Source of the DNA: Cordylochernes scorpioides
Lineage: Eukaryota; Arthropoda; Arachnida; Pseudoscorpiones; Chernetidae
NCBI GenBank assembly: GCA_030710605.1
Contig: CP092877.1
Location: 5,938,872 to 6,002,871, forward strand
Direction of reading: 5' to 3'
Length of the DNA stretch: 64,000 bases
The translations under genes were made by a program, and so were the position numbers. The notes beneath the pieces were generated by a model that was not told the origin of the DNA, did no database searches, and saw only the letters and a program-made list of their open reading frames with translations. Position 1 is the first letter of the stretch; the number at the start of each line of letters is the position of its first letter. This document shows positions 11,889 through 46,499 of the stretch, piece after piece.

Positions 11889-12322
11889 GGAAGGTTAACT
11901 GGGGTTATGAAATCTGTCGAATTTACCAAAAGCTGTTTGAGCTGGTGAGGTGGCAAGGGCCGATTTCCAGGCAATGATAAAACATAAAGTTGCGGGAAGA
12001 TGATATACATGTACCAAATAAGGGCCAAATTCCCAATCATGGAATATAGATTGACCTTTTGTCTAAATTTGCCAAAACTTGTTTATCATTCTTTGCCATC
12101 ACTAGTAGTTATTTTTACTAAGGTAATGCATAATTATTCTCCCTGATGCACAATTAAAGGTTGAGGTGCCTTTTTTGGTGATGAATATCATCATCCCGCA
12201 ACTTTATGTTGTATTCTTGCCTGAAAATCGGTCCTTGCTACTTAACCATCTTATACACCTGTTTGGTAAATTCGGCCGATAAAAATACTCCTATCGTAAA
12301 ATGTTATGAAATTGAAACCGCT

Positions 12323-12365
12323 CCTGTACTGATGAGGGCAATAGCCCGAAACCATAGTATACGGG
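12323..12365 (+). ncRNA. Type I hammerhead ribozyme
   Basis: All parts can be read. Stem I is CCTGTA (12323-12328) with TACGGG (12360-12365), 6 pairs including one G-U. The core is CTGATGA (12329-12335). Stem II is GGGC/GCCC with loop AATA (12336-12347). GAAA is at 12348-12351. Stem III is very short (A-U plus C-G, CCATAG, with one C-A mismatch), and the expected cleavage is after A12359 (GUA). The short stem III is like that of known animal hammerheads. The identical motif on the other arm is 53344-53386. Confidence 0.85.
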
Positions 12366-12481
12366 TTGGCTTTTTGTCTGAATTTGCCAAAACTGGTGTT
12401 TTGGCTCATTGTTTAGCATCACTAGTAGAGGGTGATGCATAGTGCCATCTTTCTGATGCACAATTAAAGGGAGAGATGCCT

Positions 12482-12720
12482 CTGAGGATACATATAAGAG
12501 TATATATTGTCGATAAATAAAGCAAGGGCAAATTTGGGAATAATTAATTTATTATAAGGGTATTTATAGGGAGAGAGTACAACTTACCCCAAGTTAAAGA
12601 TAATCCTAATGCGCCGCCTCAGCCACCGTCCCGTTTTCCTTATTTACAGATCAGCTTCCGAGAACCCCTCACACCTGTGGTCCCCCCGGGGTCCAGGGAT
12701 GATTGACAGGTATCCCATCT
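12482..12720. other. Conserved GC-rich segment, no assigned function
   Basis: Shared with 52985-53215 in the other arm. It contains a GC-rich stretch (CGCCGCCTCAGCCACCGTCC and onward) beside a TATAAATA-like run in the flank. I see no open reading frame or family signature. Confidence 0.3.
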
Positions 12721-12989
12721 AGATGGAGTTTCTTGACAATATTATTATTATAGTAAAGGACACGATCTCCTTTCGTTAAACGATGTGAATGATTTTATGT
12801 ATATTCAGTACATGTCAAATGAATGATCATTTATCTGTTATTAGACATACAATTCTGGATACTATAGATATTTTTATCGTATCTTATAAAGCAATATATT
12901 TCAAGCCCTGTATTATTTCAAATAGAAGCTACAGATAAAGGTATTTCAAAGTTATGCTTTTGAGCTTGGCAGGAAACAAAATGATATAT

Positions 12990-13189
12990 GATGTACTAGA
13001 GCGCCATCTGTTATCAAATTATAAAACTATTTTAGAGGCGTAATATTATTTTTAAAATAAAACAATTTCTACTGTCCTTACTGCGATGGAAAAATGAGCC
13101 AGGCCCTCTCTTTAATTTTTCCATCGCAGTAAGGACAGTAGAAATTGTTTTATTTTAAAAAGAATATTACGCCTCTAAAATAGTTTTAT
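12990..13189. mobile_element. Fold-back insertion, left arm only, with 12-bp TSD
   Basis: It is flanked by AAAATGATATAT (12978-12989 and 13190-13201). The insert has a 31-nt tail (12990-13020, containing GCGCCATCTGTTATC) and then a long near-perfect palindrome (13021-13189) whose arms include CTACTGTCCTTACTGCGATG. The right arm has a single uninterrupted target at about 52717-52730, the empty site. The catalytic core is truncated at the palindrome centre. Confidence 0.88.
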
Positions 13190-13201
13190 AAAATGATATA
13201 T

Positions 13202-14690
13202 ATTCAGAGCAATCCAAACACCTCAACAACCGCTAATAGAGGAATAAAACAACGTCAGATGTATTTATAAAATGATAGAAACAAAAAGAGAAACATATTT
13301 TTATAAAAATAAATTGGGGGAAATGTTTCCTACTGCGATCGAGACAATGCAGTAGTTCAATGTGCTGAATCAAATTTAGAATCTAACAATAAAATAAATT
13401 CAATAAACAAACTCCTAGAAACACATAAGGCATATAAATGGTGCAATTAAGTAATATTAAGTTTAACAGCCATTAGAAATGCGAGATAAATATTTACGGA
13501 TTAAACGTCCATGTATTCGGGAATGATAAGGAAGAAGAGAGACAAACGTTATTTACCAGGGTAATTAGGAAAGTGTGGGCCCACAAAATTACCTTGTTTT
13601 CTAAAAATTGTGCCATAAATTTGAGCAAGTTTTCAAAAACACGGATGTAATTGAAGATAATCAAGAACCCCTCTTTGTGGTATTTGAAGTAGTTTCCTCC
13701 AGTAACTTGCTAAATTAAACATGCTCTAGTTCACATTTTACTCGCTTCAAAAACTATAATTGCGAATTTAAAATTTATCTAACTTCTGATCAGTTATAAT
13801 CTGTTTGTTTGATATTGAAAATTAAATTTAATTGGGTTTGGTTATATTTCAACCTACTTTATATATAATTTCCATCTATATTAATATTTGGTATTATTTT
13901 AATGTGTTCTTATCTAAATATATTTATGGTAACCAAAAACCCCATTTTGGTGTATAATATAACAAGACAGTTGTGTTGTATAATAGAAACACCTCTGTAA
14001 ATAATTATAAGCATGATTGGCATGTGTCAATATATCACCATATGTAATGTACTCTGTACAAACTGAAGATAATAAATTAAACTGTGTAATAGAATAAGAG
14101 TTGAGCTAAATAGCAGAGATTGATATATAGAAGTCCAACAACGTTTAAGAACGAGGCTTAAAGATGTAGGACGTTACCAGGAAGTCGTTGAAAGTGTACA
14201 ATGACATATCTTCCGTGATTCACGCCCTTATTTCATCCAATGATGGTCCAGGTACTTCCTCATCGTAAAGATATTATTTTTTATCTGATGTGTCACACTT
14301 ATTTTTATTTTTTTGTATAATAGTAGTTTTAGTTTTATTTTGATTAATTTAAATTTCCGATCATAAATATTCTGATTTCATATTTTACCTTATATATCTA
14401 TCATCTTCTCTCCCTCTCTCTCGCAAATTGCTTTGTTTTTAAAATAGTGGGGTTTGCATTATAGAATTATATCGATTTTCAATGGTAGATAATTCGTGTT
14501 TCTAATTCAATTGTTAATCGCTTTACTGCTCATAATCAGAATTATTTCTTTGTAGAAATTCTTTTTGGGGATATACTCTGGATGGACAGGATTTATCCGT
14601 GGTCATATCTGCCCGAATGTTTATACTTTGCTTAGAAATTATTTTTACTTAACCTTACTTTAAATGCTGCTTCTACTAAATTAAATTTAT
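13202..14690. other. Arm sequence without identified genes
   Basis: AT-rich sequence matched in reverse at about 50860-52700. I see no coding signature, RNA gene or transposon end. Confidence 0.5.
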
Positions 14691-14902
14691 GATACATTAG
14701 CGCGCCATCTGTTATGAAAATTCGAAACTATTATAGTCGCGTATAATTCTTTTCAAAATTAAACAATTTCTACTGTCCTTACTGCAATGGAAAAATTAAT
14801 GGGAGGGCCTGGCTCATCAGTGGTGATATAGCGGTATGGTAGATTAAACTGGCGAAACCGCTGGGAGGGTTCATACGCGTCTATAATAGTTTCGAATTTT
14901 CA
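14691..14902. mobile_element. Fold-back family B element (left copy)
   Basis: It has a tail with GCGCGCCATCTGTTATG, then an inverted pair of units bearing AAACTATTATAG arms and pieces of the hammerhead-like core (CTGGCGAAACCGCTGGGAGG on the plus strand). Flanks TAAATTAAATTTAT and TAAATTAAAATAT are a decayed target duplication. The right-arm counterpart at 50579-50838 still has a perfect 13-bp duplication, so this insertion predates the arm duplication. The two copies have lost different internal parts. Confidence 0.75.
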
Positions 14903-14915
14903 TAAATTAAAATAT

Positions 14916-16255
14916 ACCCATGGGAATTTTTAAGCCATTCTCAATGCTCGTAATGTGTCTTCACTGGCCCTTTAAGTGAATCCGGAGCGTTGCCCGTATC
15001 ACTCGGCTAATTCTTAGAATATTTATATTGGAAGTGTACACAATGAAATGGGTAGTTGATAATTTCATATTCTTCCATTATTTTAACACACTTAAAGCGC
15101 TATGTCCTGAAAGGCACACTTACGACCAATTACGAGCAAACAAGTTTCATAGTCTTAAATATATTCGCTACATTAAAGTTATGATATGTTAAAGGTTATT
15201 TTCTTTCAATTTTGCTTGAGAAAATTTGTATAAGAAAGTTTAGAAATATTTGCACACAAGACAATAAACAGCGTAGATTAAAATAATTACACCAGATAGA
15301 ACAAAGAAAATAACTATTAGTTCATTTCATAATTCTAGAATATATTTATAAAATAGTTAAATTTAATATAAGAGACTTTGCTGGAGTCTGCTAAAGTCAG
15401 ATCCTATTATGATATTTTGAAGTCTGAAAAACTTGGACAATCCAACAATAGATATCTTGAAGTTTGTGGTCATCATAGCCAAATAAAATATCAAATCTGC
15501 CGCTACTTGGATTATTTAAAATTCTTTTGAATTAGCCACGAATTATAACAAATTGAGTGTTATAAAAATTGGGTTAAATATACTTTGGAATACTTTGTTG
15601 AAAGAAACTTTGGTATGTTTCATTTGTATTAAATTTTAATGTCACCATTCTGAATCTTTTATAACACCATAACAGAAATATTATCCATTATTTCCTGGTT
15701 TTCAATACTAACTGGTCAGGAATATGCCATTTCCTTCATGTAATTTCTTATGGATTGTTGTGTTTAATATTATCCAAGTTTATATTGGCTTATGGAATTT
15801 ATAGTCATTCACTAAATTAGTCATGATATGTTTCCTATGATTTCCTGGTGAATTTTCAATTGAGGATAATATCGTTTGTTTATTTGATTATCTTAATTCG
15901 TTGAATGTTTTATATGTATTTCCAAACGGGTTGTGGAATGGTTGCGTGATATGTGGCCCCAGTTCGCGCTCGCTGAAGCAAAGTGTGGTCGCCACAGGGT
16001 CATTTGAATGATTTCCTTTTAATTAATATTTTAGAGCACTTTTAATAAATATATTTTAACGTTTTTGAGTTAAATTTTAAAATGTTGTAATGTTAAAATA
16101 TATTTTTACCTTGTTAATTCAATTTTTTGTTGTTTTATAATAATGAAGATGCAAATTACATTGTTGTTGTTGTTTATTATCGTTTATTTAAATGAAAATA
16201 CATGGCATGTGATGATGATAACAAAAAATGAATTTTTAAATTAATATACAAAATA
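14916..16255. other. Arm sequence, no gene; Helitron-like 3' end at about 14978
   Basis: At 14978-15014 the sequence GGAGCGTTGCCCG...CTCGGCTAATT resembles a decayed Helitron 3' hairpin plus CTAR. The counterpart at 50472-50512 reads the same in reverse. The rest (matched at 49160-50560) shows nothing I can assign. Confidence 0.4.
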
Positions 16256-16400
16256 ATTTAAATAAAAAGGCATATACTGGATCAAAATATCATTTATTTT
16301 ACCAATATTTCAGTTGGGTAAACGCCAACTGAATCAAGGTATTATGACATTTTAAATTGTGTCAACAACAAATTCAGCGCCTTTTCAAAAATATACAAAA
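16256..16400 (-). repeat. PLE-terminal-like repeat, family D
   Basis: The minus strand reads CCTTGATTCAGTTGGCG...ACTGAAATATTGGTAAAATAAA, the same unit as at 21475-21600, 21990-22125, 44095-44185 and 49060-49150. Its layout (purine-rich box, GGC hairpin, CTGAAA, AATAAA) parallels the PLE terminal units at 34360-34420. The right-arm copy is 49020-49160. Confidence 0.5.
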
Positions 16401-16539
16401 ATAAGTGAAAAAAAAAGAAAAAATTAATTATAAAATTCACAAGCGTGACAATATACATTTTGCCATTTCCCAAAAACCTCCGCTTCACGAAAAGGTGTGA
16501 AATGTGCATATTAAAGAATTATAAAGCCTGCTACCTGCT

Positions 16540-16700
16540 TGTAAAGGCATGTTTAGGGGAGCGCCAGTAGGTAATGTGGTCAGTTAATCAGGCCATTGTA
16601 GGAACAGCTCCTTGAGAAATGTGCAGAAAGGACGGCAGCTGGGGCGGCCATCACCTTAACGTCCCTCTGGCACAACTATCTGGTCCGCCTGCCAGATTGT
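16540..16700. other. GC-rich conserved patch
   Basis: Matched at 48700-48860. It is GC-rich against an AT-rich background (for example GGACGGCAGCTGGGGCGGCC). Stops occur in all frames that I translated. Function unknown. Confidence 0.3.
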
Positions 16701-17144
16701 ACGCTAATTTGATAATTTATATTGTGGCGAAGGAATAATTTATATTTTATTATTTAATTTAATTAATCAATGAGAAAATACTCAACATAATATTACGCTT
16801 ATAAAATAAATAAAGCTTCCAGGATTAAGTTTCTTGTTCAAATATTTATTTTCACACAAGCTTTCAGACTTGTCAGTCCGAAACTTAGCCCTGGAAACTT
16901 TATTTATTTTATAATATTATAAATTAGGGAAATACGTTTATATATGATCTTACTATGTATTTGTAAAATCACCATAAATTATCTTTAGCTTGGTTGTTCA
17001 ATATTCTCTAGTTGTATATAGTTTTGTTGGTAAATTAAATTTTATTGCCCTCTATCGTTAAAATTTTACACAAATAAATTTACTGGCAATGCGTTTCTTT
17101 TTAAATCTCTACAGACCTTACTGCAATGATATGATTTAATGAAT

Positions 17145-17210
17145 GAGAGGGCTTGGCTCATCAGTAGTGAACCCTCTCAGCGGTTTCGCCAAATTAATCT
17201 CTAGACCGCT
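17145..17210 (-). ncRNA. Reverse-order hammerhead core, unit 1
   Basis: The minus strand is identical to the core at 17961-18026: stem III AGCGGT/ACCGCT, cleavage site GTC, stem II TTGGC/GCCAA, GAAA, CTGATGA, and capping helix GAGAGGG/CCCTCTC. See 17961-18026 for the geometry. Confidence 0.7.
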
Positions 17211-17526
17211 CTACTATTGTATTGGACTGGTTTTGTTATATACCCTGCATTTTCTATGGAAGGCAGCTAAATGGTGTTTAGTGAACTATGGACATAAGCT
17301 TATAGGTCTGTAGAGGTACATACATATAAATTTCAAGGTATTGCATCGAGCAAAGCTCTTCCGCGCAAAACATGTTTTCATAACCATTATATATTAGTAA
17401 ATTAAATTTTATTGCCCTCTATCGTTAAAATTTTACACAAATAAATTTACTGGCAATGCGTTTCTTTTTAATTTTTTTTTTTTTTAATCTCTACAGACCT
17501 TACTGCAATGATATGATTTAATGAAT

Positions 17527-17592
17527 GAGAGGGCTTGGCTCATCAGTAGTGAACCCTCTCAGCGGTTTCGCCAAATTAATCTCTAGACCGCT
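17527..17592 (-). ncRNA. Reverse-order hammerhead core, unit 2
   Basis: The second copy in the same orientation as unit 1, with every box and helix intact (GAGAGGG complement at 17527-17533, ACCGCT complement at 17587-17592). Confidence 0.7.
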
Positions 17593-17960
17593 CTACTATT
17601 GTATTGGACTGGTTTTGTTATATACCCTGCATTTTCTATGGAAGGCAGCTAAATGGTGTTTAGTGAACTATGGACATAAGCTTATAGGTCTGTAGAGATT
17701 TAAAAAGAAACGCATTGCCAGTAAATTTATTTGTGTAAAATTTTAACGATAGAGGGCAATAAAATTTAATTTACTAATATATAATGGTTATGAAAACATG
17801 TTTTGCGCGGAAGAGCTTTGCTCGATGCAATACCTTGAAATTTATATGTATGTACCTCTACAGACCTATAAGCTTATGTCCATAGTTCATTAAACACCAT
17901 TTAGCTGCCTTCCATAGAAAATGCAGGGTATATAACAAAACCAGTCCAATACAATAGTAG

Positions 17961-18026
17961 AGCGGTCTAGAGATTAATTTGGCGAAACCGCTGAGAGGGT
18001 TCACTACTGATGAGCCAAGCCCTCTC
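17961..18026 (+). ncRNA. Reverse-order (3-2-1) hammerhead core, family A
   Basis: In order: AGCGGT (17961-17966, stem III), C17967 as the cleavage position (GUC), TAGAGA (stem I strand), TTGGC (17979-17983, stem II), GAAA (17984-17987), CCGCT (to 17992, stem III partner), GAGAGGG (17993-17999, extra helix), TCACTA (stem I partner), CTGATGA (18007-18013), GCCAA (18014-18018, stem II partner), CCCTCTC (18020-18026, extra helix partner). The hammerhead-required details are met: G-C at the base of stem II, A-U closing stem III, U-A at the base of stem I. Only the linear strand order is abnormal. Activity is inferred, not shown. Confidence 0.7.
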
Positions 18027-18120
18027 ATTCATTAAATCATATCATTGCAGTAAGGTCTGTAGAGATTTAAAAAGAAACACATTGCCAGTAAATTTATTTG
18101 TGTAAAATAGTTTTGTTGGT

Positions 18121-19750
18121 TAGTTGATAATTGTCGACTAGTGCTGACGTCATCAATAAATACTTTCACATATTAAGATATACAAAGACTTGATTTCTAT
18201 ACGCTACAATATTATGTTTGCATTTAATTTATTACCGGAAAATATTTTCAAATATACAACTTATATTTATATTCAGTATGATATCCCATATATTTATATT
18301 TTTATGTAAGATATAACAACCTATAAGTGTATAACAATTTTTTTTCGAACACTAAATATTATAATTTTTTATTAAATTTTAATATATTTTAATAATTCAA
18401 AGGCCAAAATTGTTGTTTTTTTATCACCTTATTCTGACCTGGAACCTCTATAGAATATCTAAAGTATTGTTTCTGGGTAGATAGCAGTCATGATAAACTG
18501 AAAAATAAAGTGTCCGGGGATAGCAGTCATGGAGGTATCTTAATTTATTAGTATTCTGAATGTGAGTTTTTTGAATTTCTCTCAATCAAATATATATATA
18601 TATAAATTTTAGAGAGATTTGTATTTTCAAATTTTCTGAATAAAATAAATTTACCGCATCTTCGTGATTAGTACATTAGAAAGGCAACTATGAAATCACA
18701 TCCAATCACTTTATAGAGTTGAATTATCGAAGGGAGATTCTCGGCTGAAGAGATAAGGTTCTGTCTTAGCAAAAATAAAATTATTTTGATATTTTACCTT
18801 AAATGTTTGGTTCATGAAAAAAATATTGTTGCAGAATTTGGGCTGAAATATCTAAGTAATATAAATTTGACTATCATGTGGCGATTTTGTAATTTGCCAT
18901 TTCACTTCAAGCTGTTTTAAAGGAGGATCGGTCCAGGGCTTTATTCTTTTACATAAAATGAAGTCTGTTTATTTCGAATATTTTGCGTTCAGGTTTTATT
19001 TTAATATAATGACAATTATACACAAGAATATATCGATACAGTTAACGTAACTTGAAGGGTAATGTTCATATAATTCGCATCTTTTAAACTTAATGTTAAT
19101 TTATCGACATTCTAAAAACAACTAATAAAGTTCGAACATTGGCGGTGGATAAATTTTCTACGGTTGATCTGAAAGGTATTATGAAAAGCTCTAAAATACT
19201 CTTGTTAAAAGTTATCAACCTTTAAGGCTTGTATTATTATATATATTTTTTTTCATAGAAAATATTTTATAAGGTTGTCCCAAAAGTTAGTAAACACATG
19301 CGAAAATTGAAATACCAATGTTATTCGCAGATATGTATAATGTCTTTGTATTATGTATAAAGTAATTGTATTATGTATTATTATGTATTCGATGTAATAG
19401 TATTATTCGCCAAGTAATAATAAAACAAGATTTTAAGAAAATACGAAATTTTGGGAAAACCTTATAAGATAAAGTGTTTGAAAGTCTACACGCGAGAGAC
19501 ATATATTTTTTCAAGAACGATGCTGATCAAACTCCAGGATTTGAAATAATATCTTCATATTCAGCAAATAGGTCATTGTCTGGAGGGGGATTAGCCCAAG
19601 CCGGAGAGGCTTCCCTGGCTAAAGAAAACTGCAAATATTTATCATCACTTTCTTGTGAACATTATCAAGAATCATCATTGTATTTTCAGTATTCACTATT
19701 TAACACCACTGACTAAATATCTTTTTAATATAATTAATTGTACGTCTAGT
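18121..19750. other. Arm sequence without identified genes
   Basis: AT-rich sequence with a short (TA)n run near 18590. It is matched at 46500-48060. The 80-residue frame at 19474-19716 is not conserved in the other arm. Nothing else can be assigned. Confidence 0.5.
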
Positions 19751-19759
19751 TTGAATGTT

Positions 19760-19900
19760 GAAAATCTATAATCCTCACTGCAACGAGCGAATAATATTCA
19801 TTGGTAGGCCACGGCCTATCAGTAGTGAATTCTTTACCACTTTACTATCCAAACCAATTTACTTGGTTATTCGTCTTGTTGCCAAGATAGTATGTGATGT
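19760..19900 (-). repeat. Third reverse-order hammerhead family, damaged left copy
   Basis: The minus strand carries AAATTGGTTTGG, CACTACTGATAGGCC and CCTACCAATG, matching 45816-45884 in the right arm, but the segment with the GAAA strand (GAGAAACCAAT) has been deleted here. It ends with CGTTGCAGTGAGG, the same downstream box as families A and B. Confidence 0.6.
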
Positions 19901-20039
19901 TATTGCAGAATATATATATCTACCCTGGGTGTGTGTGCGGAAATGAAGTAAATACCGGATCATAATTACTCAATTAACTATAACCAAAATTTGCTTGAAT
20001 ATCATAACCAAGATCCCCTATAGAGTCGAGTATACAGAT

Positions 20040-20190
20040 CTCTTTGAAGCGGCATGGTTGATAAAACTGGCGCTGGGAGGCTGATAAACAAGGCCCTCCC
20101 CAATATTTTCTATAATCGCAGCACGGACAGTATAAAGGTTTTATTATCGCGCTTAATAGTTTAATTTCTTGTAAATTTACGGGTTTTACA
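20040..20190 (+). repeat. Degenerate reverse-order hammerhead relative (family B-like)
   Basis: The plus strand has AAGCGGCATGG, CTGGCGCTGGGAGG, CTGATAAACAAGG and CCCTCC in the same order as family B, but the GAAA box and the stem I strand are deleted. The helix GGGAGG/CCCTCC remains. The right-arm copy is 45535-45660. Confidence 0.6.
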
Positions 20191-20220
20191 TTACAGTATT
20201 AATGTGGAAATATCAAGCCT

Positions 20221-20310
20221 CCAGGGATAGGTTTCTTTAAATATTTTTAAATTCACAAATCTCTCTCTAGTTTTGGGGTATGGAAGCCCTTCTACAGGAG
20301 AAAAACACTA
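20221..20310 (-). repeat. PLE-terminal-like unit
   Basis: The minus strand begins CTCCTGTAGAAGGGC and ends GAAACCTATCCCTGGAGG, the same plan as the PLE terminal units near 48350 and 48535. The stem II/GAAA part is mutated (CATACCCCAAAAC). Its counterpart is near 45375-45465. Confidence 0.5.
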
Positions 20311-21474
20311 TACAATTCAGTGTATAAAGTTATGTAAATTAATGGAGTGGTTACCTTCGTATTACCAATTAGGGAATTATAGTAAAATATTGAATTGATG
20401 AAAATATTTCTTTCATATCCAAACACACGTATATTCAATAGTTGAAAATTACATATCATGTAAAAATCCCGAAGATAGCAAACATATAAAATGGTAAGCC
20501 TATTGTGAAATATATAAATTTTGGAGATCTATCCAGGGCGGGGATAACGATCAGAGGTACAATTAAAATAATGAATATCGCCAAAAAATGGTATTGGTAA
20601 CGAGAGAGCAATGAATCATACCACTTCGCCCCATACCACCACATTAATAGGGTCGGCAATTAGGTAGATTGGTGGTGGCCAGGCCTAATAAATCAGCTAA
20701 CAATAAATATTTACACAACTATTGGCATCAGCCAAACAATAGCTCGCACCGCAAATTGTCACTTTGTCAGCCTACGATTTGCCAAATTATTAAAATTAAT
20801 ATCGACCATTGAAAACCAATAACTGCGAAATTGATCGGGGTAAAAAACTGCCAAGTTATTGTCTCGAAACTGTCACCTGCTTCTTTAATTGTCCGGGCTC
20901 TTCAACTTCGGCTTTTTTTCTTGCCTGTTCGTCTGGGAGATAAGAAAGATTGCAATGTGAATTTGTATTGCTGTCTGTCCAGGTTCCTAGTGTTGATTTT
21001 TTGTTTTTACATTCTTTCTGAATGCCTTTTTAAACTGAACTTATCATTAATAGGGGTTTTGACTTTTAAACTTTAGAACTACTTAGTTTTTATATAAATT
21101 TATATCTATTCATTATTCAAATTTGTGTAATTTTGTAGTTTTTAAATAAATTTGATATATTAAGGTATATAGACATTGTGGGGAGATGTCTGAATTTAAG
21201 AAATAAAAATGTAAATATTTAAAAGAAAGGGCAAAACTGCAACAATTTTAATTTATATATTGGAGAATCTTTAACTTATTTCATCTTCAACAGGAGCCGA
21301 ATTTACATTCACAGCGTGGTTATTTGAATGGTATCAAGTAATAGCAAATTATGGTCGTTGTTTGGAAGTTAATATAAAGCTGAGATTTTTATCTTCAATT
21401 GAGAATTAAAGGTGAGCGTTTAGCTTTCTTAACCAGCTATATAACCTTTTCTCTCTAATGAAATAAAGTAGATT
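20311..21474. other. Arm sequence without identified genes
   Basis: Matched at 44200-45360. The frames at 20456-20659 (minus) and 45009-45215 (plus) are homologous, hydrophobic, and nearly identical apart from indels. They follow from arm identity and have no codon-level support for being genes. Confidence 0.45.
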
Positions 21475-22125
21475 ATTTAAATAAAAAACATATATTGGAT
21501 CAAACTAATTTATTTTACCAATATTTCAGTTGGCTGAACGCCAACCTTTATCAAGGTATTATAACATCTTAAAGTGTGTCAACAACAAACTCAGCGCCAC
21601 ATAACGTCAATAGAATTAGGTTTTAAAAATATTTTTGCTTATATTCAATGGGTGAAAAAAATTGATATATAAATTAATATTATGGACAAAAATATTTTTT
21701 GTAAAATGAGGGTGTGAATATTTTGAATATTAACAATAACGCCTATTTTATATTTACAATTATTTGTACTATGTGTAAAAAGATTTTTTATATAAAAATA
21801 AAATAAATACTACACATAGTACAAATAATTGTAAATATAAAATAGGAGTTATTGTTAATATTCAAAATATTCAAACCCTTATTTTACAAAAAAAATATTT
21901 TTGTCTATAATATTAATATATATCTCTTTTTTTTTTCCTCCCCATTAAATATAAGCAAAAAATTATTTAAAAACTTAATTTTATTGACGTTATGTGGAAC
22001 TGAGTTTGTTGTTGACACACTTTAAAATGTTATAATACCTTGATAAAGGTTGGCGTTCAGTTAACTGAAATATTGGTAAAATAAATTAATTTGATCCAAT
22101 ATATGCCTTTTTATTTAAATATTTA
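21475..22125. repeat. Fold-back with PLE-terminal-like ends (family D)
   Basis: A long palindrome of about 650 bp with its centre near 21795. Its two ends carry the family D unit in opposite orientation (CCAATATTTCAGTTGGC and GCGTTCAGTTAACTGAAAT). The right arm keeps one half plus the centre (43590-44190) and lacks most of the other half. Confidence 0.75.
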
Positions 22126-22197
22126 TTTATGGATTGCTCTAATTTCAAAAAGAGTATATTATTTGTAACAATGTGTTTATTTTCAATAATAACATCA

Positions 22198-22497
22198 TGG
22201 AAGGCTGGTTAAACCGTTTGGTTTTCGACCACTAGGACCCGGGTTCGAACCCGCATTGGACACTTTTTTCTGTTTAAAGAAAAAAAATGCTCCAATGGCC
22301 CCCGATTCTTGCAAAAGTCCAACCCCACCAGCGAGTGCAAATTACCAAACGGGGCTCTGGCATTAGTAAGTGCAAAGTCGAACTGCTTTTCACATGTGTA
22401 GACATGTGGTGCACTTACAGTAAAAGCAGTCGCTAACTACCCACCATGATTATCATGGCCTGTACCACGTGTACTAGGGATAAGCAAAAAAAAAAAA
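22198..22497 (+). mobile_element. tRNA-derived SINE, left arm only
   Basis: The head is tRNA-like, with a perfect B-box (GGTTCGAACCC in CCCGGGTTCGAACCCGC) and an A-box-like GGCTGGTTAAACC upstream. It ends in a run of about 14 A. It is flanked by AACATCA (22191-22197 and 22498-22504). The right arm has the empty site AATAATAACATCAAATATT in reverse at about 43490-43508. RNA polymerase III transcription is inferred from the boxes. Confidence 0.85.
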
Positions 22498-22504
22498 AAC
22501 ATCA

Positions 22505-22695
22505 AATATTATCTCTTCAGACCTTACTGCAATGATATAAGTTATTGAATGAGAGGGGTTGGCTCATTCAATAACTTATATCATTACGGTAAGGTCTGTA
22601 GATATATTTGGTGTTATTATTGAAAAGAAACACGTTGTCAGTAAGTTAAATTGTTACAAATTTCATCGATAGATGGCAATTGAAATTATAAGAGT
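22505..22695. repeat. Fold-back family A element (left copy)
   Basis: A short palindrome: CAGACCTTACTGCAATGATA facing its complement around a GAGAGGGGTTGGCTC centre, then a tail with CATCGATAGATGGCAATTG. It is the same insertion as 43311-43549, with decayed TSD copies AGAGTATATTAT and AGAGTAGATTAT. The SINE at 22198 is inserted in its other arm. The core is truncated at the turn. Confidence 0.75.
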
Positions 22696-23309
22696 AGATT
22701 ATATTATGGCAAATAAAATGCCCATTTGAGCGATTAGAGAATGCTTATTCAATAGGGTTTATGATATTTTATACCTTTATGCACATTTAACATTAATTCC
22801 CTTTCCTTTCTTTTTAAAGAAGCCTCTTCGACACCGCCTACCGTTAAGACACTCCACTGCTCGAAGCCAGCTTGAACCGCGTTTGTAGTTGGCTGATAAC
22901 CAAGCAATATTATGAAGTAAAATTGATTCAGTTGTTACTTATTCAGATAGTCCGTGCTCTTCCAACTTAAATACTCTTTGAGCTAACAGGACACGCGCCT
23001 AATTAGTGTATATATTATTTTATTTTAATTAATAATAAATTGGCTTATATAGATTGGATTATAATTTGTTTATTCAACTTTCTCCGTGAATAGACGCCCA
23101 TATTCCTGTGTGAATGAGAACCAAATAATTAGATGAGAAACTTGGGGTTTATTTGAATGTATCTTGTCGATAGATGTTTTATCCTACAGAGTGTTCATGG
23201 GTGTCAACATATCGGGTTTGAAGAAGAAATATTGATCAAAGAAAAGTATATTAGCGGTAATGTATTTCATATCTACTGTTCTAGATATTGCAACTTGTAT
23301 ACATATTAT

Positions 23310-23660
23310 AAATCATGAAACATTCATAGATCGCACAGATGCGGGAAAGAAATCCCATTCTTTTAAAGCAAAAAGGAAATATTGTTTATCTGTGTGTATC
23401 TTTAGCATGGTTAACAAACAAGAACCAATAAGCGGGTAAATAACACGGCTAACATAATAACTATCAAAAAGGTCGCTTCTCCCGTATAAATAGACGCTAA
23501 AATTAAGCGTCATCTATTGACCGTATCCGGAATCTTGCGGACACGGTTCGGAGATAAAGCCACAACACCAGCTTTGGAAAACGGAGAAGCGCCCACCTGG
23601 GGACCATGGTTTCAGGCTATGGCCCTTTTCATTTAGGGCTTTATTTCATGAGAACCACAG
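23310..23660 (-). repeat. Family C hammerhead-like repeat (left copy)
   Basis: Contains CTTCTCCCGT, GTCATCTATTGACCG and, on the minus strand, AGCCTGAAACCATGGTC followed by CCCAGGTGGGCGCTTC. This parallels the family C hammerhead at 35617-35658, but the CUGANGA box is decayed. The right-arm copy is at 42060-42230. Confidence 0.55.
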
Positions 23661-24439
23661 GGTATCAAATGGAATCTTTATAAACTGCCAAATTTTCACA
23701 ATTTCATGTGCATACATGAAAAAATAAACCTTTGGGGTCGAGTCAAATAAAGAAAATTGGACCTTTACGATCGATTAAAAAAATAGATGTTTGAGGTCGA
23801 ATGAAAATAAATTACATTTCCTTTCAGAGCTTAAGGTTCAAGGTAGGGAATAGGTATAATGAAGCAATACTGAGAGTCTAGCAAAAATAAAATTAAAGCG
23901 CTAAAGGGAATCGTTGGTTGATCTAAAAAATGATAAGTTGATGCAAGAAAAATCGAATAGCAGGAATGGTAAGACGTGTTTTTTATCGAGGAGAAAGATG
24001 ATAAAATTGCGAGGAAACATGCTGTTATTGAAGTAAAGAGGGAAACATTTTTAACTAAGAAGATGTAGCATGAGATGTCTGAAAATTATGCCCATTAATG
24101 AAAATTTAAAATATAATCTCCTTTTTATGAGAGATGTGTATAATAAATATGAAAATTCAAAGTTAAAAAACGTAGAAAATAAGTGAGAAGTTACTTTAAA
24201 TTTTGAATATTTTTTTCAAAATATTTAGAAAAGTGAGATGGGGGATAAATGATGTTTTATAAAGTAAAACATAAATAACATTAAAAGTTCAGAGTTGGGT
24301 CGAGGTGGACATTATATTGAAGTAAGATTATTATAAATTTAGAAGATATATAAAAGAAATTTGGTTAACATATGCAAAAAAAGTATTTCAAATTATACAA
24401 AAGATAATATGCTCTCTAGGCCCTTTTAAATTTGAAAGG
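23661..24439. other. Arm sequence without identified genes
   Basis: AT-rich, matched at about 41300-42010. No feature recognised. Confidence 0.45.
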
Positions 24440-26060: not shown

Positions 26061-27257
26061 ACTCAAAAATAGAACAGTCTATCAAAATATCGCATTTTTC
26101 TAGATAGACATATATTAATCAAATTCAAAATATATGCTCTATTATTAAATAAATTCAATTTATAGATTTCGCTATATATGTTAACGACTTGCCAAGTTGG
26201 GTGCTTCTTTCAACTCAACAAGATGAGATTTAAGGACGAATGTGCGCCAATACGCTGTCCAAAAATATACGTCGAATAATAAGATCAATGTGGTGACATG
26301 TTGTTAATTATTCTAGAGATAGTTCTCTGCCATCAGCAATGTTCAAATTGTCTACATTATTTCACCACACATCTTTTCTAGTTTAAGGCTCTTGTCATTG
26401 GTAGGCTGGCGTTTCTTTAATAATCGCAGCTATTTATTTCTAGAATCAATTGCTTACCTACGATTCTCCACTTTATATGAGCGAATAAAATAATACGGAA
26501 TGTGATGTTCTGATCAATAAACAAAGAAATACCAAAAGAATAGAAAACGCGAAACCGAAATGTTTCTATAATTGTAAACAAAGAAATATTTGTATGGAAA
26601 AAGTATCGATACTTTAATTATCTATTAAGAAGTGTCGCCCAGTTAATTGTGATATGGGAGGTCGATATTTTGTGGAAAAGAACAAATGACTCTGTCGTTT
26701 AAGATAGAATATTGGCGATCGGCGGAATAAATTAACTGGCGCTGTCGTTTGAAATAAATTGCACGTGAGGGTATGTAAATAGGTGGGATAGAATATTAAC
26801 TCTATCTTTTAAACTAGAATGTAGATTTGAGAGTATAAGAACGGTAGTATTTAGAAATAGCTATGTTGATTAATTAAGAATTTAGCTGTGGGACTCTATT
26901 AGCGTTAGAATAGTACAATCTAACTCTTGTATTGCAAGGTAGATCTTGATGCGAGTAAGGAATTCACTTAGAGTGAGAGAACTGTGCAGGATGATATTAG
27001 CAATTCCCTGTCCAGCAAATTAAGCCCATCGTTGATAATTAACTGTAAATCCCAGTTAAGATATTTCCATTAAATATTAATAACACCCGGCATGTGTCTT
27101 AGTGAACATTTTAGAATCCTTTCAAATATACGGAGAGGTGAAATTATGTAGATTAATACGGAAGATACTCCAATACTACATAGTGACCGTTCAACTTTTC
27201 TTCCTTTTATCGTCACTCAAATCACATATTACAAGTTTCTATATTGCTAAGATAAAC
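26061..27257. other. Well-conserved arm sequence, no gene
   Basis: Matched at 38456-39600 with about 96 percent identity in the stretch I checked (26890-27140). No coding signature. Confidence 0.5.
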
Positions 27258-28912
27258 CTAGCCTTATATCCTGTTTCTATAATGCTATGATAGACCTAGC
27301 CTTATAGCCTGTTTCTATATTCCTATGATAGACCTAGCCTTATAGCCTGTTTCTATATTGCTATGACAGACCTAGCCTTATAGCCTGTTTATATATTGCT
27401 ATGACAGACCTAGCCTTATAGCCTGTTTCTATATGGCTATAATAGGTCTAGCCTTATAGCCTGTTTCTATATTGCTATGACAGACCTAGCCTTATAGCCT
27501 GTTTATATATTGCTATGACAGACCTAGCCTTATAGCCTGTTTCTATATTGCTATGATAGACCTAGCCTTATAGCCTGTTTCTATATTGCTAAGATAGACC
27601 TAGCCTTATAGCTTGTTTCTATATTGCTAAGATAGACTTATCCTTATTGCCTGTTTATATATTGCTATGATAGACCTAGCCTTATAGCCTGTTTCTATAT
27701 TGCTAAGATAGACTTATCCTTATAGCCTGTTTATATATTGCTATGACAGACCTAGCCTTATAGCCTGTTTCTATATTGCTATGATAGACCTAGCCTTATA
27801 GCCTGTTTATTTATTGCTATGACAGACCTAGCCTTATAGCCTGTTTCTATATTGCTATGACAGGCCTAGCCTTATAGCCTGTTTCTATATTGCTATGACA
27901 GGCCTAGCCTTATAGCCTGTTTCTATATTGCTATTACAGACCTAGCCTTATAGCCTGTTTCTATATTGCTATGACAGGCCTAGCCTTATAGCCTGTTTAT
28001 ATATTGCTATAATAGATCTAGCCTTATAGCCTGTTTATATATTGCTATAATAGATCTAGCCTTATAGCCTGTTTATATATTGCTATAATAGATCTAGCCT
28101 TATAGCCTGTTTATATATTGCTAAGATAGACCTAGCCTTATAGCCTGTTTATATATTGCTATAATAGATCTAGCCTTATAGCCTGTTTATATATTGCTAT
28201 AATAGATCTAGCCTTATAGCCTGTTTATATATTGCTAAGATAGACCTAGCCTTATAGCCTATTTTTATATTGCTATGATAGACCTAGCCTTATAGCCTGT
28301 TTATATATTGCTATGACAGACCTAGCCTTATAGCCTGTTTATATATTGCTATGACAGACCTAGCCTTATAGCCTGTTTCTATATTGCTATGATAGACCTA
28401 GCCTTATAGCATGTTTCTATATTGCTATGATAGACCTAGCCTTATGGCCTGTTTCTATATTGCTATGATAGACCTAGCCTTATAGCCTGTTTCTATATTG
28501 CTATGATAGACCTAGCCTTATAGCATGTTTCTATATTGCTATGATAAACCTAGCCTTATAGCATGTTTCTATATTGCTATGATAGACCTAGCCTTATAGC
28601 ATGTTTCTACATTGCTAGGATAGACCTAGCCTTATAGCCTGTTTATATACTGCTATGATAGACCTATCCTTATAGCCTGTTTCTATATTGCTATGATAGG
28701 TCTAGCCTTATAGCCTGTTTATATATTGCTATAATAGACCTATCCTTATAGCCTGTTTCTATATTGCTATGATAGACCTCGCCTTATAGCCTGTTTCTAT
28801 ATTGCAATAATAGACCTAGCCTTATAGCCTGTTTCTATATTGCTATGATAGACCTAGCCTTATAGCCTGTTTCTATATTGTTATGATAGACCTAGCCTTA
28901 TAGCCTGTTTTA
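27258..28912 (+). repeat. 38-bp minisatellite (about 44 copies)
   Basis: The period is 38 bp; the unit contains CCTAGCCTTATAGCCTGTTT and ATATTGCTATGA. Variants (GACAGACC, GATAGACC, AATAGATC, AAGATAGACC) alternate in blocks, suggesting multi-unit amplification. The matching array on the other arm is 36768-38455. Confidence 0.97.
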
Positions 28913-30325
28913 TATGTATAGGTACGGTTTATCCATCCACAAATTGGCTCCCTCATGTAGCAGGAATTTAATCAGCCAATCAGCTCTTCCAATTATTGTT
29001 CATCTTAGCAGTTAATTTTACCGCAATGAGATACTTTATTATAAATATTAACCTGTGTTCGAATAACGAAATTTTACCACAAAATGTCCCTAATTAATAA
29101 ATTATTTTGTTATATTTGTACTTATATGAAATATTTTCCCGGAATGTTATTAATTAATTATATTGTTTTGATCGTTTTATATAGGTATATTTGTATAATA
29201 GGAATATGAGAGGTTTGAACATCCTTATTTTCAGATATTCTACTTCAGAAATATTTCAGAAGAATTAATAATCATTACATAGAATGGTAGAATTGATGTG
29301 CCATTGATGTGAATTTAATAAACTGCACAATTCAAAATCAAATAAACCTGATGAAGAGACAACATATAAATCCATAGATACTGTTGTCAATCAGTTAATT
29401 ATCCAATAGAATTTTTAAATTCATTGGATCTACCAGGAATGCCACCGTATATTTTATCTTTGAAAATTGGTTCCCCAATCATCCTTCTACGAAATATAAA
29501 TCCATCGCGACTATGCAATGGGACTAGGCTATCAGTAAAAAAAATAAATGGATAACATAATTGAGGAAACCATTTTATATGGAAAATATCAAGTGGAACA
29601 TGTACTACTACCACGCATTCCTATGATACCAATAGATACTCTATTTGAATTCAAACGTCTACAGTTTCCTCTACGACTAGCCTTTGCAATGACCATTAAC
29701 AAAGCACAGGAATAGGCATTACAAGTATGCGGATTAAATTTGATAAATCAATGATTCTCACATGAACAGCTGTACGTTGGGTTCACGAGTTGGAAAAACC
29801 ATCAAATATATTTGTTCTTGCACCAGATAGGAAAACAAAAAATGTTGTATATTTACAAGCTCTACTAAGAAAAAGTTCACCATCAATCATCAAATACAAT
29901 TCATTTCATGGTGATATTTAATAATCACAAAATTATTTTTCAATTGGAATTTGTTTGCAATATTGTTTAATATCACAAGTGAAGAAGCATGTTTATTCTA
30001 CCATCAACTATGTATATCTATGTTTTGTACATATGTTATATTCAAATGACATATATGCAGGGATAATTTTATTGTTAATTTTATTTTTTATGTATTGTAT
30101 ACATTTGATCATTAATAAATTATGTTTGAGGTATCAAAACTGCCTTTTTGTACAAACACAGCAACTTGTGGTACAGCTAGGTGGAGCAGAGTATCAAACA
30201 TAAAGTTATCTTGACAAGTATAGATTCAGTAGGGATTGGATGTTTGCTAGAATCGTTTTAACAAATGTTCGTTAGGCAAACTTTTACTCGGGTGAAAACA
30301 GGGCGAAGCCGAGTACATTCGCTAG
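28913..30325 (+). mobile_element. Degraded autonomous Helitron, 3' part
   Basis: Contains a PIF1-type helicase remnant (29345-29880) and ends with the Helitron 3' signature: hairpin-forming GGGCGAAGCCGAG, then CTAG at 30322-30325 followed by T. The right arm keeps only the last 100 bp of this element (36664-36767), so about 1.3 kb is missing there. Confidence 0.8.
29345..29880 (+). pseudogene. Helitron PIF1-type helicase, C-terminal remnant
   Basis: Plus-strand frames with several shifts give [58 protein letters not shown] and QFPLRLAFAMTINKAQ. These are the conserved C-terminal blocks of the SF1B (PIF1-like) helicase of Rep/Hel proteins; the last is the helicase motif before the final QxL block. 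In the autonomous element this protein, joined to a Rep nuclease, would carry out rolling-circle transposition. In-frame stops (after KAQE and elsewhere) show it is dead. Confidence 0.88.
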
Positions 30326-31995: not shown

Positions 31996-32501
31996 TATAT
32001 CTATATCAATAAAGAGGATGAGGGCGATTCCTCTTTTCATATAAGTGACAATAAATATAGACAATATATGCGTGGTAAGGACGAAATATTCGGGAGATGA
32101 GTTTCTTTCAACACTTTATTAGGACATCAAGCTTTCGGGCACAGCGTGGCCCATCTACAGGATCAAATGTATAAGAAAAATGATACACTATATACACGAA
32201 GAATAAATCTGCATATGTATTATTAGAAATTAGTTGTAAAATTTTTAAAATAATCGGTAATACTTAGAATTTTTTTGTTTAAAAAGAATATCGAGACATA
32301 AGCAAATTAATAAAATTTGTTAAGAAGAATAATATACGAATATTACAAGGTATTAAGATAAAAGCGTAATAAGACTAAAAGGACGTTCCTACGGTTCGAC
32401 GGAAACTGTGATAAAATTATGAGTATTTATAAGGTAAAACAGTTTGAAAAGGATATTAAAATAAATGAACAAAACAGGGAATTCATGGCGTACATCGATG
32501 G

Positions 32502-33491
32502 CTATTTAGGTAATAAGCTTATATACGGCTCAGGTACATCAATATGTCTGTTTATACTATTATATCTCAGAGATAGCAAGGCCTCGACAACCAATCTTTT
32601 GTGTTTATGTGGTATGTTAGAATAATGTGATCTTGGATCAGTTGTGTTGAAACTATGTCCTGTCTGTGATATGTGCTGGACAATAAGTGATTTCGGATCG
32701 TTATGTCTGATGTTTCTGTCGTGTTCCATTATTCTGTCTTTAATGTAACGGCCAGTTTCACCTACATAAACACTGTCGCAATCGTTGCATTTTATGGAAT
32801 AAACAGCATTGTTTCTTTGAAGAGTGTTCCGAGGTGTGTTGTCTTTAGTAATAGGGTTCCTTAAGATAGTGCCTATACTAGGGGTGTTGGAAAAGTAAGT
32901 GCGGATGCCGAAGTTCTTTAGTTCTCTAGCTATTTTTATGCTTTGCAAGGAATATGGTATTGTGCAGATGGATTTATAGTTGTCATATATCTTGGTGCGG
33001 GATGGGTTATGGAAATGCCTTAAAATAAAGTTTTTAGGATAACCAGAGGACATTAAATTTGAAATTATGTTATTTGTTTCCCTTTGCTTTGACTCCTCAG
33101 TGTTACAGTGGGTATATATTCTCTTGGACAAGGTTCTTACCGTATTGATTTTATGGCTTAATGGGCAGAAAGATGAGAAGTTTATATACATTGGGTGAAA
33201 GGTGGGTTTATAATAGACTTCAGTATTATATCTATTGCGTGTTTTTGTTATGCGTATGTCCAAAAATGCCAAAGAGTCACATGTTTCAGTCTCGGAAGTA
33301 AAGTCTATGTCTTGATAGAAATTATTCAATGTGTTGAGTATATCATTAAAGGCGTTAATTTTGATTATAGCAAAGACGTCATCTATGTATCTAGACCAGA
33401 TTAAAATGTCGTCTGGGAAGATATTAACTATACGTTTATCTATCTTGCGCATCACTATTTCTGAAAGGGGAGAGGATAATGGGCTACCCAT
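32502..33491 (-). CDS. PLE reverse transcriptase (C-terminal part) plus GIY-YIG endonuclease
   Basis: 329 residues, open throughout but 5'-truncated. The Met at 33491 is inside the conserved block QTKGTPMGSPLSSPLSEI, and a stop lies 11 codons upstream of it. Next come WSRYIDDVFAI (YIDD active site), LAFLDIRITK and the thumb-like VYYKPTFHPMYINF. The GIY-YIG domain starts at about residue 230: NAVYSIKCNDCDSVYVGETG, KDRIMEHDR (catalytic Arg) and VVEALLSL (Glu). In intact PLEs this protein nicks the target and primes reverse transcription there. The loss of the RT N-terminus should make it inactive as a polymerase, although the endonuclease domain looks complete. Confidence 0.92.
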   Translation of the reverse strand: MGSPLSSPLSEIVMRKIDKRIVNIFPDDILIWSRYIDDVFAIIKINAFNDILNTLNNFYQDIDFTSETETCDSLAFLDIRITKTRNRYNTEVYYKPTFHPMYINFSSFCPLSHKINTVRTLSKRIYTHCNTEESKQRETNNIISNLMSSGYPKNFILRHFHNPSRTKIYDNYKSICTIPYSLQSIKIARELKNFGIRTYFSNTPSIGTILRNPITKDNTPRNTLQRNNAVYSIKCNDCDSVYVGETGRYIKDRIMEHDRNIRHNDPKSLIVQHISQTGHSFNTTDPRSHYSNIPHKHKRLVVEALLSLRYNSINRHIDVPEPYISLLPK

Positions 33492-33542
33492 AGGGGTGCC
33501 TTTGGTCTGTTTGAAGTAAGCTTAGTTGAATTTGAAAATACT

Positions 33543-34025
33543 ATGGCAAAGACTGATTTTGATAAGTGCAATGAGTTTGGGCAAAGCATAAAAATAGCTA
33601 GAGAACTAAAGAACTTCGGCATCCGCACTTACTTTTCCAACACCCCTAGTATAGGCACTATCTTAAGGAACCCTATTACTAAAGACAACACACCTCGGAA
33701 CACTCTTCAAAGAAACAATGCTGTTTATTCCATAAAATGCAACGATTGCGACAGTGTTTATGTAGGTGAAACTGGCCGTTACATTAAAGACAGAATACAG
33801 GAACACGACAGAAACATCAGACATAACGATCCGAAATCACTTATTGTCCAGCACATATCACAGACAGGACATAGTTTCAACACAACTGATCCAAGATCAC
33901 ATTATTCTAACATACCACATAAACACAAAAGATTGGTTGTCGAGGCCTTGCTATCTCTGAGATATAATAGTATAAACAGACATGTTGATGTACCTGAGCC
34001 GTATATAAGCTTATTACATAAATAG
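33543..34025 (+). CDS. Partial PLE protein: GIY-YIG endonuclease domain
   Basis: 160 residues. From about residue 15 (SIKIARELKNFGIRTYFS) to the end it is almost identical to the C-terminus of the minus-strand copy, differing at a handful of residues. It has no reverse transcriptase. The first 14 residues come from other sequence at the junction (33538-33585). It is the inverted partner of the 32502-33491 frame and probably not a separate gene. The GIY-YIG residues (VYVGETGR, KDRIQEHDR, VVEALL) are intact. Confidence 0.85.
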   Translation: MAKTDFDKCNEFGQSIKIARELKNFGIRTYFSNTPSIGTILRNPITKDNTPRNTLQRNNAVYSIKCNDCDSVYVGETGRYIKDRIQEHDRNIRHNDPKSLIVQHISQTGHSFNTTDPRSHYSNIPHKHKRLVVEALLSLRYNSINRHVDVPEPYISLLHK

Positions 34026-34500
34026 CCATCGATGTACGCCATGAATTCCCTGTTTTGTTCATTTATTTTAATATCCTTTTCAAACTGTTTTACCTTATAA
34101 ATACTCATAATTTTATCACAGTTTCCGTCGAACCGTAGGAACGTCCTTTTAGTCTTATTACGCTTTTATCTTAATACCTTGTAATATTCGTATATTATTC
34201 TTCTTAACAAATTTTATTAATTTGCTTATGTCTCGATATTCTTTTTAAACAAAAAATTCTAAGTATTACCGATTATTTTAAAAATTTTACAACTACTTTC
34301 TAATAATACATATGCAGATTTATTCTTCGTGTATATAGTGTATCATTTTTCTTATACATTTGATCCTGTAGATGGGCCACGCTGTGCCCGAAAGCTTGAT
34401 GTCCTAATAAAGTGTTGAAAGAAACTCATCTCCCGAATATTTCGTCCTTACCACGCATGTAATTGGGAAGATTTTACCGTTTAGAAATAGACAATATATG

Positions 34501-36663: not shown

Positions 36664-36767
36664 CTAGCGAATGTACCCGGCTTCGCCCGGTTTTCACCCG
36701 AGTAAAAGATTGCCTAATGAACATTTGTTAAAACGATTCTAGCAAACATCCAATCCCTACTGAATCC
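36664..36767 (-). mobile_element. Helitron 3' end remnant (right copy)
   Basis: The minus strand ends in CTAG (36664-36667) preceded by the hairpin CCGGGCGAAGCCGGG. Sequence up to CCCTACTGAATCC matches left 30226-30325, then jumps straight into the 38-bp array. The helicase part present in the left arm is absent. Confidence 0.8.
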
Positions 36768-42760: not shown

Positions 42761-43310
42761 TCTTCTTCAAACCCGATATGTTGACAGAGAGTTCTTCCAT
42801 GACCACACAGTAGGATAAAACATCTATCGACAAGATACATTCAAAGAAACACCAAGTTTCTCATCTAATTATTTTGTTCTCATTCACACAGGAAGATGGG
42901 CGTCTATTCACGGAGAAAGTTGAATAAACAAATATTAATCCAATCTATAAGCCAATTTATTATTAATTAAAATAAATAATATATACACTAATTAGGCGCG
43001 TGTCCTGTTAGCTCAAAGAGTATTTAAGTTGGAAGAGCACGGACTATCTGAATAAATAACAGCTGATTTAATTTTACTCCATAATATTGCTTGGTTATCA
43101 AGATCAGCCAACTACAAACGCGTTTCAAGCTGGCTTCGAGCAGTGGAGTGTCTTAACGGTAGGCGGTGTCGAAGAGGCTTCTTTAAAAAGAAAGGAAAGG
43201 GAATTAATGTTAAATTTGCATAAAAGTTGATAATATCAGAAAACCTATTGAATAAGCATTCTCTAATCGCTCAAATAGGCATTTTAATTGCCAAAATATA
43301 ATATACTCTT

Positions 43311-45884: not shown

Positions 45885-46101
45885 ATGAATATTATTCCCG
45901 TTGCAGTGAGGATGATAGATTTTCAACATCAAACTTGAAGTACAATTAATTAAATATATATTTAGTCAGTAGTGTTAAATGGTGAATACTGAAAATACAA
46001 TGATGATACATGATAATCAAAATTCGAAACTATTATAGACGCGTATGATTTTTTAAAAATAAAACAATTTCTACTGCCCTTACTGCAATGGAAAAATTGA
46101 T

Positions 46102-46168
46102 GGGAGGGCCTGGCTCATCAGTGGTGAACCCTCCCAGCGGTTTCGCCAGTTTAATCTACCATACCGCT
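46102..46168 (-). ncRNA. Reverse-order hammerhead core, family B
   Basis: Minus strand: stem III AGCGGT/ACCGCT, cleavage site GUA, stem I TGGT/ACCA, stem II CTGGC/GCCAG, GAAA, CTGATGA, extra helix GGGAGGG/CCCTCCC. Compared with family A, stem I, stem II and the extra helix each differ by paired changes. Confidence 0.7.
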
Positions 46169-46302
46169 GTTATATCGCATTTTTGGAACTTTCTTTTATA
46201 GTGATACTGATTCTAGACTGTCCATAAATCATCTAAAATACTCATTCCAAGAGTCTAGCATCAGTATCACTGTAAAAAGAAGTTCCAAAAATGCAATATA
46301 AC

Positions 46303-46369
46303 AGCGGTATGGTAGATTAAGCTGGCGAAACCGCTGGAAGGGTTCACCACTGATGAGCCAGGCCCTCCC
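46303..46369 (+). ncRNA. Reverse-order hammerhead core, family B, inverted partner
   Basis: The partner copy on the plus strand, same boxes, with one mismatch in the extra helix (GGAAGGG against CCCTCCC). Confidence 0.68.
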
Positions 46370-46499
46370 ATTATTTTTTTCCATCGCAGTAAGGGCAGTA
46401 TAAATTGTTTCATTTTCAAAAGAACCATACGCGTCTATAATATTTTCGAATTTTGATAACAGATGGTGCGCTAATGCATCATAATACATTATAATGTTT

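Follow-up and report, generated by a model that had tools for sequence, protein, structure and literature searches.

A predicted type-SGC hammerhead ribozyme in dispersed, palindromic elements of the pseudoscorpion Cordylochernes scorpioides

The DNA analysed in this work (the window, 64 kb of contig CP092877.1 of the pseudoscorpion Cordylochernes scorpioides) carries at positions 17961-18026 a motif in which every core base of a hammerhead ribozyme is present, with the three sequence blocks in the order S, G, C, that is cleavage site, GAAA and CUGAUGA. The motif has CUGANGA, GAAA and UH together with the pairs A15.1-U16.1 and G10.1-C11.1, and an additional helix (IV), found in the forms GAGAGGG/CCCTCTC and GGGAGGG/CCCTCCC, joins stems I and II on their outer sides. 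Judged by its sequence it is a type-SGC hammerhead, a non-circularly permuted form. An earlier note on this DNA had described the hammerhead core, the reversed block order and the extra helix, and all three are upheld by the sequence, by the descriptor search reported below and by covariation of stems I, II and IV; its letters and coordinates were correct on re-reading, and cleavage after C17967 stands as a prediction. Stem I, which the note had drawn as six clean pairs, is composed in this copy of three base pairs (UAG/CUA), an A.A mismatch and two further pairs. The note had also held that no hammerhead of this topology was published and that the order is not a permutation. Type SGC was published in 2023, and the order is a non-circular permutation (Eckert et al. 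2023, PMC10085705). That paper defines the blocks S, G and C, describes type SGC with the same four helices and reports its cleavage in vitro, including a dead mutant and compensatory rescue. Its SGC sequences are given as coming from metatranscriptomes and from no known organism's genome, and the origin of non-circular permutations is left open there.

An order-blind descriptor (UH, GAAA and CUGANGA; stems I, II and III of at least 3, 4 and 5 bp; span 110) found five matches in the window, at 17961 (+), 17525 (-), 17143 (-), 46303 (+) and 46100 (-), all five in S-G-C order. In 100 first-order Markov control windows the same descriptor gave no match in this order and three in other orders. The order was S-G-C also in 45 of 45 matches at loci L039-L058, which had been chosen for SGC matches. 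Minimum free energy folding for the three families described below (A, B and C), by a procedure which cannot draw pseudoknots, gave two adjacent hairpins, stem III and helix IV, with z scores of -3.1, -2.6 and -2.5; stems I and II would thus be kissing pairs between the two loops.

The search covered a genome of 24 contigs and 2.62 Gb. A block C segment of 18 nt had 180,266 matches at up to two mismatches (reversed control, 9), and the exact full SGC pattern had 41,731 (control, 0), a lower bound for the family as the pattern was fixed to the stem III sequence of the window copy. There are three diverged families, A at 17 kb of the window, B at 46 kb of the window and C elsewhere in the genome, whose non-coding units measure 368, 371 and 371 nt from one predicted cleavage site to the next (one tandem pair each). 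In ungapped columns the between-family identity is 89-94% in the ribozyme and 55-63% in the remainder of the unit; with gap columns counted the values are 77-85% and 53-58%. By reading of the unit alignment, the conserved islands outside the ribozyme include a hairpin (GCGGAAGAGC..TTGCTYGA), AAGCTTATGTCCATAG and a TATA-like box located 39-49 nt upstream from the predicted cut. A further helix of 11 bp pairs the stretch after the ribozyme with an upstream stretch (76 of 77 cells paired, seven distinct forms), and three of its positions change on both sides, in copies chosen by motifs adjoining this helix. No coding frame was found in the part of the window where one was looked for (12000-24000). 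Non-coding tandem repeats of this length, within the range of about 170-400 nt, which carry a hammerhead are characteristic of animal retrozymes. The hammerhead of animal retrozymes is of type I and the present one of type SGC, so the units are, as their sequence reads, a variant of the animal retrozymes and not a plain member.

Covariation was assessed on 68 separate copies, 40 of them distinct; 38 of the 40 were aligned, two rearranged ones being omitted, and one descriptor-found copy brought the alignment to 39 rows. Paired cells amounted to 92.1% of 967 (90.3% after shuffling), and cells changed on both sides numbered 30 against 10.7, a value reached in none of 500 shuffles. Between the families, double changes are present in stem I, stem II and helix IV (Table 1). 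Such paired variation could also arise if one inverted stem strand were corrected against the other at the level of the DNA.

The motif lies in a dispersed, palindromic element resembling Penelope-like elements (PLEs). Its family-A insertion is complete, and the corresponding empty site (48061-48074) lies in the opposite arm of the large palindrome of the window. The second and third ribozymes of this insertion would release a monomer of 382 nt. Genome-wide, among 100 listed places of the full pattern, neighbours less than 700 bp apart were head-to-head in 11 cases, tail-to-tail in none and on the same strand in six; a second list of 100 places, partly overlapping the first, gave 14, 0 and 22. 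In 17 of these 22 same-strand neighbours (family A) the tandem spacing is 367-369 bp, and a tandem array at C1:8845365-8852350 has 13 minus and three plus matched units. The join between the arms varies, with start-to-start ribozyme spacings of 136-517 bp in 11 pairs.

The ends were studied in a hand-picked sample of 25 two-armed elements, measurable in 24. A duplication score of at least 11 was reached by 16 of the 25 and by seven of 600 mismatched left-right pairs, the clear target duplications being 11-20 bp long; one of the 16 (W46) is in doubt, since a different, imperfect 18-bp repeat is indicated by its empty site. In 23 of the 24 measurable elements one end falls at unit position 136-154 and the other at 160-191, and the difference between the two ends has a median of 32 nt (range 16-54). 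The outer ends of 132 arms peak at unit positions 141-150 (33 arms) and 171-190 (44 arms), the inner ends being spread.

The window also contains an insertion of a PLE proper (Table 1). At least 119 scored copies of its family were present among 58,040 first-look candidates, many of them by eye in -,+ pairs. The SGC retrozymes share with this PLE head-to-head copies, a long target duplication and end sites about 30 nt apart, and both the median of the retrozymes and the value of this PLE fall at the 30-40 nt expected between the two end sites of a PLE. In the anole PLE both target strands are cut and extended, and reverse transcription begins at two internal sites with the genomic 30-40-bp "tail" lying between them (Frangieh et al. 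2024, PMC11167929); two such start sites would explain both the two end sites of the retrozymes and their two arms. PLEs have been named before as a strong candidate for the mobiliser of retrozymes (Cervera and de la Pena 2020, PMC7229834). The insertion features tie the SGC retrozymes to PLEs, and we infer that a PLE is the mobiliser. As a direct carrier of the SGC motif a PLE was considered and rejected: the one by a family-B copy in locus L014 looks like a neighbour, not a host.

Table 1. Features of the window, with strand and the evidence for each.
Feature	Position	Strand	Evidence and remarks
Block S: stem III 5' strand AGCGGT and cleavage nucleotide C17	17961..17967	+	sequence, descriptor; predicted cut 17967/17968
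Stem I 5' strand TAGAGA	17968..17973	+	sequence; UAG/CUA versus UGG/CCA covariation
Stem II strand TTGGC	17979..17983	+	sequence; distal pair U-A versus C-G, double change
Core GAAA (G12 A13 A14 A15.1 in hammerhead numbering)	17984..17987	+	sequence; final A pairs with T17966
Stem III 3' strand CCGCT	17988..17992	+	sequence; identical in three families, without covariation support
Helix IV 5' strand GAGAGGG	17993..17999	+	sequence; A-U versus G-C, double change
Stem I 3' strand TTCACTA	18000..18006	+	sequence
Core CTGATGA (block C)	18007..18013	+	sequence; CTGATGAGCCAAGCCCTCTC at 8 places in the window with up to 3 mismatches
Stem II strand GCCAA	18014..18018	+	sequence
Helix IV 3' strand CCCTCTC	18020..18026	+	sequence
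Complete family-A element, 1,075 bp	17032..18106		one (+) arm; the (-) arm, head-to-head with it, has two ribozymes in tandem at a distance of 382 bp
Left copy of 14-bp target site duplication ATAGTTTTGTTGGT	17018..17031		single-copy empty site
Right copy of 14-bp target site duplication	18107..18120		exact match to left copy
Second SGC ribozyme of family-A element	17527..17592	-	descriptor; predicted cut after 17586
Third SGC ribozyme of family-A element	17145..17210	-	descriptor; predicted cut after 17204
Family-B element, two head-to-head arms	46018..46477		absent from opposite arm of palindrome; empty site 19661-19678
Family-B SGC ribozyme	46303..46369	+	descriptor; predicted cut after 46309
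Family-B SGC ribozyme	46102..46168	-	descriptor; predicted cut after 46162
PLE insertion	32071..34486		arms head-to-head at 33580/33581; 31-nt tail difference; exact 14-bp duplication ATAGACAATATATG
PLE fragment	32502..33521	-	reverse transcriptase PF00078, 26.7 bits (cut-off 29.6); GIY-YIG PF01541, 22.4 bits (cut-off 22.6); both slightly below the Pfam cut-offs
PLE fragment, other arm	33480..34025	+	GIY-YIG PF01541, 24.4 bits, above the cut-off of 22.6

We consider it probable that these elements are retrozymes processed by the SGC hammerhead and inserted by PLE machinery. According to this model the hairpins of stem III and helix IV would kiss through stems I and II, building an ordinary hammerhead core which would cut after C17967 and serve to process a non-autonomous retrozyme. 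Tandem-unit transcripts would yield monomers of about 370 nt, which would probably be circularised. The machinery of a PLE in the same genome would make staggered cuts in the target DNA, offset by about 11-20 bp, and would start cDNA on either strand, using two sites in the RNA that are separated by about 32 nt. Each cDNA may make several rounds of a circular or multimeric template, and the two would join upstream, giving the palindromic insertion.

Mobilisation of the same SGC retrozymes by a long interspersed nuclear element (LINE) or another enzyme is unlikely in our judgement. Target duplications of 11-20 bp also suit LINEs, further pieces with reverse transcriptase and RNase H, which we take to be jockey-like, are present in the window, and no PLE bearing the retrozyme's own end sequence was found in the one PLE family compared. 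However, the two outer end sites with their median distance of 32 nt, the neighbours that are head-to-head and never tail-to-tail in either list, and the same layout in the PLE of the window fit a PLE better than 5'-truncated LINE copies, and a poly-A tract is absent at the element ends inspected. We give a still smaller chance to a look-alike that folds as a hammerhead and is catalytically dead, a passenger of the retrozyme. The short stem I of family A, with its mismatch, and the lack of covariation in stem III would agree with it, but the core bases are retained in three families which have diverged elsewhere, and cleavage rates of 0.007-0.19 per minute are given for natural SGC RNAs with this layout (PMC10085705). 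Least probable of all is a palindromic DNA transposon (foldback or of the kind of miniature inverted-repeat elements) with ribozyme-like repeats kept by descent and an RNA structure that is no longer important, since its long inverted arms, high copy number, broken copies and internally rearranged copies (14765-14873 and 50600-50850) are set against duplications and arm joins of variable length, ends that differ by the tail, the occurrence of tandem units, covarying RNA pairs and a ribozyme more conserved than the remainder of the unit.

Several observations weigh against processing by the SGC hammerhead and insertion by PLE machinery. Pairs with any both-sided change number five against 3.9 after shuffling, a figure equalled or exceeded in 152 of the 500 shuffles, and the number of pair types (22 against 21.5) is not in excess either; the double changes mostly separate the three families and so represent few independent events. 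Double variants of stem III among decayed copies number 19, where about 13 would be expected from 385 and 1,444 single variants (385 x 1,444 / 41,731, taking 41,731 as N), and several of the 19 have broken S blocks; this gives the stem no support. Covariation among the copies, on which the earlier note had made its reading depend, thus stands for stems I and II and helix IV, by few events, and fails to back stem III. Arms starting at unit positions 1-10, the predicted cleavage site, are 13 of 132, four of them from one tandem array, a weak excess; counts by start position were 8,940 from +1 and 7,915 from -4, given without a +5 baseline. A start region shared with the PLE did not show up in the SGC units, whose best match to the PLE was not significant (E 0.036), and neither the descriptor nor Rfam found a hammerhead in the PLE, one PLE family being compared in both cases. 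Finally, the antisense arm in transcripts of the palindrome could block the ribozyme. Locus L053 (C1:3060837-3061220) is a 122-bp tandem array made up of a truncated family-A unit, in which the matched part starts at or near the predicted cut.

The same genome holds a conventional hammerhead retrozyme. A pattern in the conventional block order had 22,051 matches (control, 43), and the commonest form among the 100 matches listed is CTGATGAGGGCCAACAGCCCGAAAC. At three loci, L062-L064 (C1:1946500-1948300, 7582600-7585000 and 5965000-5967600), the units are about 338 nt long and their ribozyme, read by eye, is apparently a minimal type I hammerhead; the descriptor, asking here for a stem III of 3 bp, missed these, theirs being shorter. 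One of the loci is arranged as a -,-,+,+ palindrome whose ends lie at unit positions 150 and 204; two others have an end at 203. Kinship of the 338-nt retrozyme with the SGC units was looked for and rejected, with only short matches (best E 0.052), the clearest of which is a 10-nt island, ATAGATGGCG. The motif (AT)AGATGGCG is common to these otherwise unrelated retrozymes (unit C 152-161, unit B, conventional unit 92-101). It lies in the end region of the SGC units and is perhaps a promoter or a protein-binding site.

There is about an even chance that a broader proposal holds, by which SGC hammerheads are not confined to unknown RNA replicons and run a large retrozyme lineage of a pseudoscorpion beside a conventional type I lineage in the same genome. 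In both lineages Penelope-type enzymes would copy circular RNA, priming at each end of the broken DNA from two sites in the template, with palindromic insertions as the result. If true, it would answer which enzyme mobilises animal retrozymes and would supply a natural source of block shuffling. Two old family-B copies, at 14765-14873 and 50600-50850, have the S-G segment inverted or deleted relative to block C and are natural rearrangements of the ribozyme blocks by insertion or hairpin processes. A genome with both conventional and reverse-order hammerhead retrozymes is a natural place to study the rise of non-circular permutations, and more than 41,000 exact SGC copies in one genome are a resource for mining covariation and activity.

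The window itself is from 4579 to 62170 a large inverted repeat, its two arms each about 28 kb long and 83-96% identical in the pieces that align, around a centre at about 33 kb; it may be a real palindrome or joined divergent haplotypes. Matching arrays of 38-bp tandem repeats lie within it at 27235-28915 and 36764-38454, and both arms contain short hairpin derivatives (22480-22720 and 43280-43580) with the outer sequence of the retrozyme and no ribozyme core. Rfam gave no match at gathering score in the window, the nearest to the site being a chance lysine riboswitch (E 3.2), and no hammerhead up to E 1 in loci L041, L046, L048, L059 and L060; a search with RF00163 over the whole genome gave no match and is uninformative, as control genomes were equally silent. 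Below its threshold, Rfam matches mir-1278 at L048 603-670 (-), with 43.7 of 61 bits and E 2.3e-6. In IMG/VR a 20-nt pattern had 0 contigs, and the core pattern had one, whose flanks do not form an S block and which was taken as chance.

In the literature searched, with most subscription papers and all bioRxiv preprints outside it, the term type-SGC hammerhead occurred solely in PMC10085705, and no Cordylochernes hammerhead or pseudoscorpion ribozyme was found. The SGC topology is already known, and its setting in an animal genome and a retrozyme looks new. The S-G-C order, reported in what was found only from environmental RNA samples, is now present in tens of thousands of animal-genome copies, and C. 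scorpioides supplies the type-SGC hammerheads of the 2023 paper with a host genome. By layout, not by sequence comparison, the present motif is like HRIMA-1 and the other SGC variants (PMC10085705) in block order, core bases and four helices, including the one connecting stems I and II. The direct join of stem III and helix IV (0 nt) is within their range of 0-44; stem I has 3-7 bp here and five fixed pairs in HRIMA-1, and the linker from stem I to stem II measures 5 nt in the copy at 17961-18026 and typically 3 in the SGC variants. The setting differs, being an animal nuclear genome with tens of thousands of copies in a retrozyme unit in one case and metatranscriptomes in the other. A pseudoknot-containing hammerhead (PMC11300833) is alike in being a hammerhead with a pseudoknot, but has a pistol-like secondary structure and connectivity, and "permut" is absent from the main text of that paper.

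Animal retrozymes without long terminal repeats (PMC7229834) likewise have non-coding tandem units, there of about 170-400 nt, low GC content, larger target duplications and coexistence with PLEs, and the main text of that paper never uses the word "inverted". They carry conventional type I hammerheads, unlike the SGC units, and the hammerheads of PLEs are given in the same paper as minimal variants of type I. PLEs encode a reverse transcriptase and a GIY-YIG domain, whereas the SGC units have no coding frame in the part of the window given above. The duplications look AT-rich, as in PLEs, in a genome which is itself AT-rich, and the PLEs with hammerheads described in PMC11167929 occur in tandem copies, as the SGC units do here.
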